64,000 nucleotides of DNA from positions 930,001 through 994,000 of the forward strand of contig NZ_PEFL01000001.1 in assembly GCF_002754475.1 (NCBI RefSeq), read 5' to 3'. Source of the DNA: Comamonas sp. 26 (GTDB taxonomy: Bacteria; Pseudomonadota; Gammaproteobacteria; Burkholderiales; Burkholderiaceae_C). The notes below the pieces were generated by a model, which saw nothing but the letters and a program-made list of their open reading frames with translations, made no database searches and was not told where the DNA came from. How positions within the stretch are numbered: the first letter of the stretch is position 1; the number at the start of each line of letters is the position of its first letter. Shown piece after piece: positions 2,022 through 4,868 of this stretch. Made by a program: the position numbers and the translations under genes.

Positions 2022-3728
2022 CTAGACATGCAGGTTTTTTTGCTTAATTGCAACTGATACTTGCAAAAAGCACACCGTCCCATTCGTTGAATCTTTGGGT
2101 GAAATTCTTGATCTGCAATTGAAGTAAGTGACCTTCCCCGATATTTGTTGGCACGGTACTGCTGCATATCTTTTGTCCAGTTTTGCTAACGGTACAGGAT
2201 GAAATTTCTTGGCCGGGGGGGCTGTTCCAGTGGTCGGATCGTAATGCAATGCTGAAACCGTGTAATCGCTTGTGAGGTTTTGCAGTGTTCCGCCTAGTGA
2301 CACGACGAGTTTGACGGATGTACAAGCGTTAGGTACGACTACTCCTGTTTCTGCAGTAGTCGAGGTTCCGCCTCCCTGCAGTAAGTATCTCGGTAATAAA
2401 GCATCAAAGTTCGCGTTATCCAAGACCGTAAACGAATAGGCCACAGTACTACTTGGGCCAGTGGCTCCTGTTGCGCCTGTAGCACCCGTTGCTCCATTGT
2501 TCCCTGTAGCGCCAGTGGGACCTGTTGCACCAGTGGATCCCGTTGCACCAGTTGGGCCAGCGGAGCCAGTTGCACCCGTACCACCAGTCGCACCCCCTGG
2601 GCCTTGAGGGCCTTCGGCGCCCGTTGCTCCGGTTGCCCCTGTGTTTCCTTGAGGTCCTTGGGCGCCTGTTGCTCCCGTCCCTCCAGTTGCGCCTGTTGGG
2701 CCAGCTGCACCAGTAGAACCCGTTGCGCCTGTTGTTCCAGTTGTGCCCGTCAGGCCTGTTGCACCAGTGGCACCGCCAACGCCTGTGGCGCCAGTTGGGC
2801 CTGCTGCGCCAGTGGATCCCGTTGCACCGGTTGCACCAGCAGGGCCGGTTGTACCAGTTGCACCAGTAGCGCCGCCAACGCCGTTGGCGCCAGTTGGGCC
2901 TGCTGCGCCAGTGGATCCCGTTGCACCGGTTGCACCAGCAGGGCCGGTTGTACCAGTTGCACCAGTAGCGCCGCCAACGCCGTTGGCGCCAGTTGGGCCT
3001 GCTGCGCCAGTGGATCCCGTTGCCCCGGTTGCACCAGCGGGGCCGGTTGTACCAGTTGCACCAGTAGCGCCGCCAACGCCTGCGGCTCCCGTGGGGCCTG
3101 CTGCGCCAGTGGGGCCAGTTGCACCATTGGCGCCGTCAACACCTGTGGCTCCCGTGGGGCCTGCTGCACCAGTGGCTCCTGAAGCACCGGTTGCGCCAGT
3201 GGGTCCTGCCGCACCGTTAGATCCCGTTGCACCGGTGGCTCCAGTTGCGCCCGTAGCACCTTGCAAATTGCCAATAGTCGACCCCCAAACATTTCCGGAC
3301 TTGGGGCCGTACAGAGAATAAGTGCTGATATCGACGTAGAAGTCGCCGTCGCGGCCCACAGTATTTGCGGGTGCGCGCACGCCGGTAATCAGAACTGCAC
3401 CTGGGGCGTATCCAGGCTGGCCTTCTGCCCCGACCGGTCCTTCTACACCAGCAGGGCCAGCAGGGCCAACCAATGTCAACGAGTCAGTCGGCCACGCCCC
3501 GTTAGCTTTGGGGCCATAGAGCTTGCCTGTTGAACTGTCCAAGTAAAAATCGCCATCTTTACCGACAGTGCTGGCAGGCGCAGTCTTCGCACCGAGGAGT
3601 ACAAAGCCAGATGCAGGGGCCACGCTGGCCTGACCTCCATCATCTCCACCTCCGCCACCACAGGCTGACAAAGAAATTGTGAGACCAACCAGTAAACTGG
3701 CAAGAAGCGGATTGACACGAGTATGCAT
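2022..3728 (-). CDS. Collagen-like surface lipoprotein with Gly-X-Thr repeats
   Basis: A 568-residue protein starting at ATG 3728, with GGAG upstream. Residues 1-23 form a lipoprotein signal peptide with lipobox LSAC (Cys23), followed by a Gly/Asp linker. Residues 42-156 hold two copies of a module with the motif DGDFYxD...LYGPK, seen in collagen-like and phage-tail proteins. Residues about 157-424 are uninterrupted Gly-X-Y triplets dominated by GAT, GPT and GTT, with almost no charged residues. Residues 426-568 form a non-collagenous C-terminal domain with four Cys, perhaps a trimerisation or adhesive head. Thr in the Y position stabilises bacterial collagen mainly when O-glycosylated, and a glycosyltransferase is encoded divergently 69 bp away. 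Adhesion or biofilm function is inference. Confidence 0.88.
2781..3077 (-). repeat. Three 99-bp tandem repeats in the collagen domain
   Basis: Residues 218-316 consist of three near-identical 33-residue units ([15 protein letters not shown]...), matching three 99-bp direct repeats with only a few base differences. A fourth, diverged unit follows. The identity at DNA level implies recent duplication and makes the length prone to slippage or unequal recombination. This is coding repeat DNA, not CRISPR. Confidence 0.9.
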
Positions 3729-3797
3729 AAGTAGAACTCCACGGGTAGGCGAGAAATTCTGCTTTTATTGCTTCTAAATCTAATTATTTTTTTCAGC
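3729..3797. promoter_or_regulatory. Divergent promoter region of collagen and glycosyltransferase genes
   Basis: These 69 bp separate the two divergent starts and must hold both promoters, or one overlapping pair. The stretch is much more AT-rich than its surroundings (TAATTATTTTTTTCAG), consistent with promoter melting sequences. No consensus pair could be assigned confidently. Confidence 0.45.
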
Positions 3798-4868
3798 ATG
3801 TTACATAGATGCATCAGTTTGAGCATGATCGTGAAGAACGAAGCTCCTGTAATAAAGCGCTGCCTCGAATCTGTTAGACCATGGATTGATCAGTGGGTCA
3901 TCGTGGATACCGGCTCTACCGATGGGACTCAGCAGCTTGTGCAGGAGGCGATGGCCGGGATTCCTGGCACGCTATACGAGCGGCCCTGGGTTGACTTTGC
4001 GCACAATCGAAATGAGGCCTTGGCTTTCGCGCGGCAGAAGGCGGACTATGTGTTGTTCATCGATGCCGATGAGCAGTTGCATTTGCCTGATGGATTTCGA
4101 TGGCCGAATCTCGATGCAGATGGCTACCTCTTCAAATGCATTCTGAACACCACACAGTACTCCCGAAATAGCTTGATTTCGACTCGCCGGAATTGGGCGT
4201 GGGAGGGTGTGATTCACGAGTACTTGACTTGCCCAGAACCTCACGAATGGCAGTTGCTTCCTGGGCCAGAAATTCATGTCAGCAGAGATGGTGCCAGAGC
4301 CAGAGATCCCTCCACTTACCTCAAAGACATTGAGGTGCTCAAAAAGGCATTGACTAAACAGCCGGGCCATCCCAGGTACACCTTCTATCTTGCTCAAAGC
4401 TACCGGGATGCGGGTCTATTGTCTGAGAGCCTGACTCAATACGAAAAGCGAGTCGGCCTTCAGGGCTGGGCCGAAGAAACTTGGTATGCGGCTTTTCAGG
4501 TTGCAGTGATGAAGGAAAAGCTCCATCGCTCAAGCCTTGATGTTCAGCAGGCATATTTGCGTGCTTATGCAATGCGGCCTAGTCGGGCGGAGCCTCTTTA
4601 TGAGCTGTCCAGGTATCTAAGGCTGCAGGGGGATACAGTACTTGCTCATCTTTATGCCCTGCGTGCTTCTCGTATCAAGAAAACAGAGGATCTGCTGTTT
4701 GTCGATTCGTCTGTGTACGAGTGGAGGGCTTTGGATGAGCTGGCCAGCGCTGCCTGGTATGCCGGTGCTCTGGATGATGGGCGAATGGCCTGTGAACAGC
4801 TACTTGCCGAAGGGAAGTTCCCCGAGACGGAAAGAGCCCGGATTGAGAGCAACAGCAAGTTCTATTGA
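3798..4868 (+). CDS. Family 2 glycosyltransferase with TPR-like C-terminus
   Basis: A 356-residue protein from ATG 3798; an upstream TTG at 3768 is possible but adds a poorly conserved hydrophobic leader. The N-terminal half is a GT-A fold: ISLSMIVKNEA, then WVIVDTGSTDGT (nucleotide-sugar binding), HNRNEAL, and the metal-binding motif FIDADE near residue 90. The C-terminal half is helical with TPR-like spacing (YTFYLAQSYRDAGLLSESLTQYEKR), a pattern shared with SunS-type protein glycosyltransferases. Divergence from the Thr-rich collagen-like gene suggests that protein is its acceptor; this is inference from context. No signal peptide, so cytoplasmic. The stop is 25 bp from the convergent integrase remnant. 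Confidence 0.85.
   Translation: MLHRCISLSMIVKNEAPVIKRCLESVRPWIDQWVIVDTGSTDGTQQLVQEAMAGIPGTLYERPWVDFAHNRNEALAFARQKADYVLFIDADEQLHLPDGFRWPNLDADGYLFKCILNTTQYSRNSLISTRRNWAWEGVIHEYLTCPEPHEWQLLPGPEIHVSRDGARARDPSTYLKDIEVLKKALTKQPGHPRYTFYLAQSYRDAGLLSESLTQYEKRVGLQGWAEETWYAAFQVAVMKEKLHRSSLDVQQAYLRAYAMRPSRAEPLYELSRYLRLQGDTVLAHLYALRASRIKKTEDLLFVDSSVYEWRALDELASAAWYAGALDDGRMACEQLLAEGKFPETERARIESNSKFY

Follow-up and report, generated by a model that had tools for sequence, protein, structure and literature searches.

A Collagen-Like Lipoprotein and Its Predicted O-Glycosyltransferase on a tRNA-Leu-Integrated Phage-Type Element of Comamonas sp. 26

Introduction

Glycosylation of bacterial collagen-like proteins is described for the spores of Bacillus and Clostridium difficile (PMC7157674, PMC8968730) and is thought possible in Pasteuria (PMC11917490). 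The closest precedent for the locus discussed below is SgtA/BclA3 of C. difficile: SgtA, with 358 amino acids (aa), consists of a glycosyltransferase (GT) domain followed by four TPRs at the C-terminus and is encoded directly upstream of bclA3; in vitro the enzyme transfers N-acetylglucosamine (GlcNAc) from UDP-GlcNAc as β-O-GlcNAc onto Thr of collagen peptides (PMC7157674). The present locus lies in a stretch of 64,000 nucleotides of Comamonas sp. 26 (contig NZ_PEFL01000001.1, positions 930,001 to 994,000), called the window when the whole stretch is meant, and it consists of a gene for a collagen-like lipoprotein and a divergent gene for a GT2-TPR glycosyltransferase (Table 1). Judged from the sequence, the latter is likely to be a dedicated protein O-glycosyltransferase for the lipoprotein, modifying its Thr stretch. 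No collagen-GT pairing outside C. difficile was found among the matches listed in the open-licence PMC literature.

By what was comparable, the window pair may work like SgtA/BclA3: by description, both join a collagen-like gene to a GT gene, at a distance of 69 bp and divergently in the window; both enzymes have a GT domain followed by C-terminal TPRs, in 358 (SgtA) and 356 aa (window); and in both Thr of the collagen triplets is available as acceptor, at 61 of the 90 Y positions in the window. Unlike the C. difficile system, which belongs to the exosporium of a Gram-positive spore, that of the window is a predicted lipoprotein on a prophage element. A collagen stalk is shared with BclA of Bacillus spores, where it is glycosylated (PMC8968730), as is predicted for the window. 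As for phage tail fibres with collagen-like regions, PHROG tail families match the collagen region of the window, and a GT of the same family stands beside a collagen gene in viral contigs; in 37 of these contigs the order is GT and then fibre gene, whereas in the window the collagen gene stands before the GT in divergent orientation and its product bears a lipoprotein signal.

Regarding the better-known relatives of the enzyme, SunS and ThuS modify Cys of small bacteriocins, and the acceptor of GmaR is flagellin. The modelled fold of the window GT appears to be, overall, that of the S-glycosyltransferases SunS and ThuS (PDB 7msn, 7msp, 7msk); its score for the SunS family (TIGR04195, NCBIfam) is 39.5 bits, below the cut-off of 350. 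GmaR, the O-GlcNAc transferase and antirepressor of Listeria (PDB 22ao, 7x9r), also combines a GT with TPRs, but its TPR domain is N-terminal (PMC9638930).

The Lipoprotein and Its Glycosyltransferase

The open reading frame (ORF) of 568 aa matches Pfam Collagen at E 2e-35, and its score for the collagen triple helix repeat (PF01391), 120.8 bits, exceeds the gathering cut-off of 27.2; the NCBIfam cut-offs for Lcl, SclA and SclB were not reached (114, 95.5 and 102.7 bits against 500, 400 and 325). Residues 157-426 are Gly-X-Y triplets with zero breaks, in which X is Ala in 51 of 90 and Pro in 17 of 90; the region holds 66 Thr overall and two charged residues, and its middle is made of a 99-bp unit present 4.4 times. 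By the +2 rule, the Gly that follows Cys23 of the lipobox would direct the protein to the outer membrane. Because the lipobox, the 90 exact triplets and a homologue of equal layout in the nearest relative (genome G052) come together, the collagen frame is taken as real, and a chance repeat or a wrong frame was ruled out. G052, C. metallidurans (L099) and Methylobacter (L066, L067) have collagen proteins with stretches related to the N-terminal modules. Between the window and G052, the GTs are 89% identical and the N-terminal parts of the lipoproteins 84.5% identical over 168 aa, while the heads share about 31-33% over 82-86 columns.

This C-terminal head (residues 427-568, after the collagen) is matched by G052 in two different frames, with E values of 7e-12 for the first half, in the listed frame, and 2e-10 for the second half, in the overlapping one; in the assembly, therefore, the end of the listed ORF is probably read in the wrong frame. 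An intact copy of the head is found in G052, and the break may be an assembly error, a real break or a slippage-type, possibly phase, variation.

As for the GT, it matches Glycos_transf_2 at E 2e-14, with weak TPR matches under the cut-off, and its predicted structure combines a GT-A domain with a TPR superhelix (mean predicted local distance difference test, 96.2). The DAD motif occupies residues 89-91, and D37, D89, A90 and D91 are invariant in 41 aligned sequences, that of the window included. A fold search with the model found SunS with a root-mean-square deviation (rmsd) of 2.5 over model residues 1-274, ThuS and a longer SunS chain that reach the C-terminus of the model at rmsd 6-11, and the TPR domain of OGT; the GT-A part is common to TarS, TarP and WrtF. 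These Foldseek/VIA matches express likeness to the model only, and leave room for families missing from the lists. The best PDB sequence match is GmaR (E 5e-13, residues 5-95). By eye the enzyme has no signal peptide, and it is expected to be cytoplasmic.

The main features had been noted in an initial annotation made from the letters of the sequence: a divergent pair 69 bp apart, which the gap confirms; a nearly uncharged Gly-X-Thr collagen lipoprotein with a lipobox, borne out by the triplets and the LSAC/Cys23 motif; a DxD motif, which proves to be the invariant DAD; and a TPR-like C-terminus in the layout of protein glycosyltransferases, in agreement with the GT-A/TPR model and its likeness to SunS, ThuS and the OGT TPR domain. 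Concerning the lipoprotein ORF as first listed, signal peptide, modules and triplets stand in one frame, but the head is split over two.

A scan of 1700-5100 gave one promoter-like site (1.1 expected) and one terminator-like site (4.2 expected). Elsewhere in the genome of the window (L093 8632-9270, contig C1 at about 1.855 Mb) there is a second Thr-rich collagen protein, with 71 triplets, Thr in 54% of Y and an LPGC lipobox-like start; this genome has only one GT of the family.

Table 1. Features of the lipoprotein-glycosyltransferase pair and of the element that carries it (positions in the window)
Feature	Position	Strand	Basis or remark
Collagen-like lipoprotein, open frame of 568 aa	2022..3728	-	ORF list and Pfam Collagen match
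Lipoprotein signal peptide, lipobox LSAC, Cys23, Gly at +2	3660..3728	-	Motif search and by eye
Two [23 protein letters not shown] module copies, N-terminal to the collagen	3261..3608	-	
Collagen region, 90 Gly-X-Y triplets, predicted acceptor	2451..3260	-	
C-terminal head in the listed frame	2025..2450	-	G052 head matched in the first half only (31%, 86 columns)
Overlapping frame with the second half of the head	2044..2325	-	G052 head matched at 39% (75 columns)
Divergent intergenic stretch, 69 bp	3729..3797	.	
GT2-TPR glycosyltransferase, 356 aa	3798..4868	+	Pfam and model
GT-A catalytic domain, DTGSTDG and DAD motifs	3798..4292	+	Pfam, alignment, model
TPR superhelix, probable acceptor-binding part	4314..4856	+	Model and fold search
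Integrase fragment	4894..5217	-	Corresponds to the C-terminal 107 residues of the G052 integrase (369 aa), at 93% identity
att-like direct repeat	1803..1849	.	46/47 bases as in the tRNA-Leu 3' part at 7153-7199
Intact tRNA-Leu (caa), bounding the element on its other side	7145..7229	-	

Co-occurrence in Bacteria and Plasmids

The GT family is rare: in the class, 5 of 369 genomes have a match at E 1e-40 or better, and in the genus 5 of 53 have one above 400 bits. A scan of named genomes gave 43 GT loci, which span Burkholderiales, Xanthomonadales-type and other gammaproteobacteria, Methylobacterium, Acidobacteriota, Planctomycetota, Verrucomicrobiota, Chlamydiota and Nocardioides, and include a distant outlier in Chitinophagaceae. 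A collagen-like ORF lies within 3 kb of the GT in 12 of them, from Pseudomonadota, Acidobacteriota, Planctomycetota and Actinomycetota, and the count falls with distance, from 13 collagen-like ORFs in 244 kb within 3 kb of the GT to 0 in 226 kb at 3-6 kb. Outside this set, the pair occurs in the window, in G052, in G045 (two copies, one of which is L033) and in G055; the sets overlap, as L032 is genome G036, L033 is genome G045 and L069 looks identical to G490. Among the other class genomes with the GT, zero collagen was found in the stretches fetched from G130, G199 and G385, and adjacency cannot be judged in G015, whose contig stops 66 bp before the GT.

On plasmids, 11 of the 144 records with a GT match were opened, and eight have a collagen gene (three Cupriavidus, Methylobacterium aquaticum, Mesorhizobium ciceri, two Priestia and Peribacillus), the three without being L101, L104 and L106. 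In the adjacent bacterial and plasmid cases compared, the nearest collagen is always 5' of the GT, either co-directional or divergent. The GT of G055 (L092 9003-10056, on a contig of 4.68 Mb) follows a Thr-rich collagen and is broken up into three frames.

Some homologues of Chlamydiota and Verrucomicrobiota type (L038, L042, L044, L055 and L071, but not L043 and L048) have by eye a signal-peptide-like start, which is odd for an enzyme that uses a nucleotide sugar, and L042, L043 and L044 have two or three GT paralogues each.

Threonine Bias and Partner Proteins

In bacterial collagens at large, Thr accounts for 31.6% of Y and is its predominant residue (PMC8968730). Among the bacterial and plasmid collagens adjacent to a GT, 22 of 23 have Thr in at least 45% of Y, against 4 of 39 loci from class genomes without the GT, one of these four being a GRTGRT repeat. 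The 23 leave out L111 (a near-copy of L056), L090 (the same gene as L033) and the phage L097, and the poly-G stretch of L035 was excluded by rule from the Thr and adjacency counts; the 39 controls are the top-listed places from 37 of the 67 genomes with Collagen over the cut-off, and "without the GT" means zero GT match at E 1e-40. In the genus, 4 of the 5 GT-bearing genomes reach this value (G015 is fragmented), versus, among the matches listed, 3 of 48 without the GT: G006 (46%), G024 (59% complete) and G020, with a GMTGMT-type repeat.

It could be supposed that collagen genes are simply common, since 67 of 369 class genomes have Pfam Collagen over the cut-off, among the matches listed; this reading is disfavoured because the enrichment is local to the GT and part of the genus matches are not collagen, many of those fetched being GSVGLV- or GMSGMS-type repeats.

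Regarding the 31 non-adjacent loci, the genomes of 26 were searched for Collagen; 20 have a match over the cut-off elsewhere, and in nine the fetched locus is Thr-rich (Cupriavidus, two Tahibacter, Lysobacteraceae, Solimonas, a Comamonadaceae metagenome-assembled genome, two Chlamydiota and one Verrucomicrobiota). On account of these nine, the GT may also act in trans on distant collagens.

The proteins adjacent to the GT end in different ways: by eye, they are lipoproteins in the genus of the window and in Cupriavidus, and have an ordinary signal peptide in the Delftia type; others carry a C-terminal Hint domain (Methylobacterium), are NTTRR-F1 and "collagen-like repeat preface" proteins (Priestia), which we take to have a spore role, or are phage tail fibres. 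Different ends with the collagen in common argue that the collagen is what the GT needs.

In two loci, the GT is fused to other sugar-acting domains. L100 4014-6809 (Mesorhizobium) joins GT2-TPR, an Anp1-like domain and GT25, 2.4 kb from a collagen of 182 triplets with Thr in 99% of Y, and L052 1063-3999 (Methylobacterium aquaticum) joins GT2-TPR, a group-1 GT and an FkbM methyltransferase near a Thr-rich collagen; such fusions suggest that the sugar chains are longer in some loci. In the window the GT stands alone, which would mean one sugar per Thr, unless unlinked enzymes extend the chain.

Viral Contigs and Phages

In IMG/VR, the best 80 of at least 551 confirmed GT relatives were analysed, and the viral figures given here refer to these 80 contigs. 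A collagen-like run lies within 3 kb of the GT in 40 of them, with 43 collagen ORFs in 421 kb near the GT versus 7 in 638 kb farther out, and with none in the 64 tail-sheath control contigs. Since this control consists of P2-like phages, probably of another group than most GT contigs, the near-versus-far count within the same contigs is the better comparison. The adjacency of the two families, which the initial annotation had named as a check, was thus found in bacteria as well as in viral contigs.

In the 37 contigs where the collagen ORF lies 3' of the GT on the same strand, it opens within 80 bp of the GT or overlaps it in 20, the gaps being measured to the opening of the frame and not to the start codon; this order, GT and then collagen, is the reverse of the bacterial one. 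The nearest collagen is upstream of the GT in five viral loci (L252, L253, L261, L276 and L299). Of these, L253 is a 40-kb contig whose GT, 59% identical, has a collagen gene on either side; terminase and portal genes of another phage type come after them. In this provirus (8055-13274) the collagen-GT pair sits between two 96% identical IPTL-CTERM proteins, the second collagen gene comes after them, and a chromate-transporter-like gene stands before.

Mobile-Element Context

The window pair is carried as cargo by a phage-type element whose integration site is tRNA-Leu. About 5.35 kb lie between the att-like repeats, and the tRNA-Leu-bounded remnant (1803-7229, about 5.4 kb) also holds a truncated umuC-like gene, cho (435 bits, cut-off 367) and a umuD-like gene (152 bits, cut-off 110); Rfam on 1500-7500 found tRNA only. 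G052 has an intact copy of this tRNA at 3513361-3513488 and a partial one at 3553752-3553849, and the element of about 40 kb between them has genes for portal, large terminase, major head, baseplate, sheath, tape-measure and gpA-type replication, followed by the intact integrase, the GT, the collagen gene and the attachment repeat; we take it to resemble a P2-type prophage. The initial annotation had called the pair self-contained: GT and collagen are adjacent, but the term leaves out the element of which they are the cargo.

The pair is probably a lysogenic-conversion cassette that alters the host surface. It lies in an integrated element bounded by att repeats, by which such cargo is recognized, and this reading is the most economical one because the pair is cargo at the edge of the prophage in G052, with L253 as a second case.

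Alternative Explanations

Several observations weigh against the assignment of the GT to the Thr stretch of the collagen. There is no collagen within 3 kb in 31 of the 43 bacterial loci (some contigs end near the GT), nor within 6 kb in 3 of the 4 phage records opened out of 19, the fourth having a collagen fibre 5.5 kb off; five of the 26 genomes searched for non-adjacent loci have no Collagen match; and the ten searched Methylobacterium genomes, from an orphan clade of eleven rows, show in the loci fetched only charged, Thr-poor collagens, with Thr in at most 16% of Y. Genus relatives without the GT carry, among the matches listed, collagens with 26-46% Thr in Y. The likeness to SgtA is one of layout taken from its description, and activity is shown for SgtA only (PMC7157674). 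Furthermore, in the window the frame change of the head sits near a single-base run (about 2211-2217). Finally, two plasmid GTs directly follow another kind of gene on their 5' side, that of an autotransporter in Citrobacter (locus L101 2915-7191) and that of a YadA-type adhesin in Acinetobacter (locus L104 205-2709), and the family may use acceptors other than collagen. A protein with GTSTN-type Ser/Thr repeats, a possible non-collagen acceptor, is encoded at L040 3-704(-), divergent from an orphan GT of the family.

The GT could modify the lipoprotein or fibre elsewhere, at the head, the N-terminal modules or another residue, with the Thr in Y merely stabilizing the triple helix. This agrees with the predominance of Thr in Y of bacterial collagens, which is tied to helix hydration (PMC8968730), and with the 20 of 43 viral collagen loci whose nearest run has Thr in less than 40% of Y, where the acceptor may indeed be something else; it is improbable all the same, as the bacterial collagens adjacent to a GT lie well over the 31.6% mean, unlike those of genomes without the GT, and the proteins differ at the ends while the collagen is common to them. 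A reading in which the pair is inactive here, on a decayed prophage remnant with a frame-broken head and lost function, is unlikely, though somewhat less so: the integrase is reduced to its last 107 residues, only some 5.35 kb are left between the repeats and the head runs over two frames, but the GT is open and very close to that of G052, signal peptide, modules and all 90 triplets are in frame, and the break lies beside the single-base run, where a sequencing error or slippage-type variation is possible. Most GT2 enzymes act on polysaccharides, and the GT could build lipopolysaccharide, capsule or similar glycans, its adjacency to collagen being due to the clustering of host-surface genes in mobile elements. 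TarS, TarP and WrtF, which have the same GT-A part, and the PHROG label of the phage family, β-1,4-glycosyltransferase, would fit this possibility, as would the GTs of the tail-fibre region of pelagimyophages (mostly GT8), which have been read as O-antigen modifiers (PMC7029224). Nonetheless, it is very improbable and was disfavoured: protein S-glycosyltransferases, with the helical repeat, give the best fold matches to the whole model, the enrichment of collagen-like ORFs is confined to the vicinity of the GT, and zero polysaccharide genes were found among the annotated neighbours at 0.4-8.9 kb of the window. For phage GTs of the tail-fibre region, the association with collagen offers, as regards the window's GT family, an alternative to the O-antigen reading (cf. 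PMC7029224).

Proposed Mechanism

With collagen O-glycosylation as the preferred reading, we infer the transfer to Thr, the donor sugar, the order of steps, the surface location and any benefit as follows. The cytoplasmic GT2-TPR enzyme would bind the chain, still unfolded and not yet exported, in the groove of its TPRs and transfer a sugar from a nucleotide donor to many Y-position Thr; by analogy UDP-GlcNAc is the first guess for the donor, and the chances that the first sugar is GlcNAc are about even. The glycosylated prolipoprotein would be exported by Sec, lipidated at Cys23 and sorted to the outer membrane, where trimerization would give a sugar-coated stalk with a variable head. As the pair is carried as phage-type cargo, the host surface would be changed in the lysogen.

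On a broader scale, the GTs may form a collagen-decorating enzyme family common to bacteria and phages, which travels with any available collagen, be it in lipoproteins, Hint-domain proteins, Priestia collagen proteins or phage tail fibres, and temperate phages may use the pair for lysogenic conversion, to coat the host with a glycosylated collagen stalk whose head is exchanged or switched; this proposal is tentative, a little short of an even chance.

Conclusions

In conclusion, the window pair can be regarded, from its sequence features, as a phage-carried, Gram-negative lipoprotein version of a known collagen-GT pairing, with wide relations. If true, one enzyme and one acceptor would offer a compact handle for glycosylated recombinant collagen, and the finding raises the question of what a phage gains from sugar-coated collagen on its tail or on its host. 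It would also explain the nearly uncharged Gly-X-Thr of some bacterial collagens, and the pairing would extend collagen glycosylation to Gram-negative lipoproteins, Planctomycetota, Acidobacteriota, an actinobacterium and phages.

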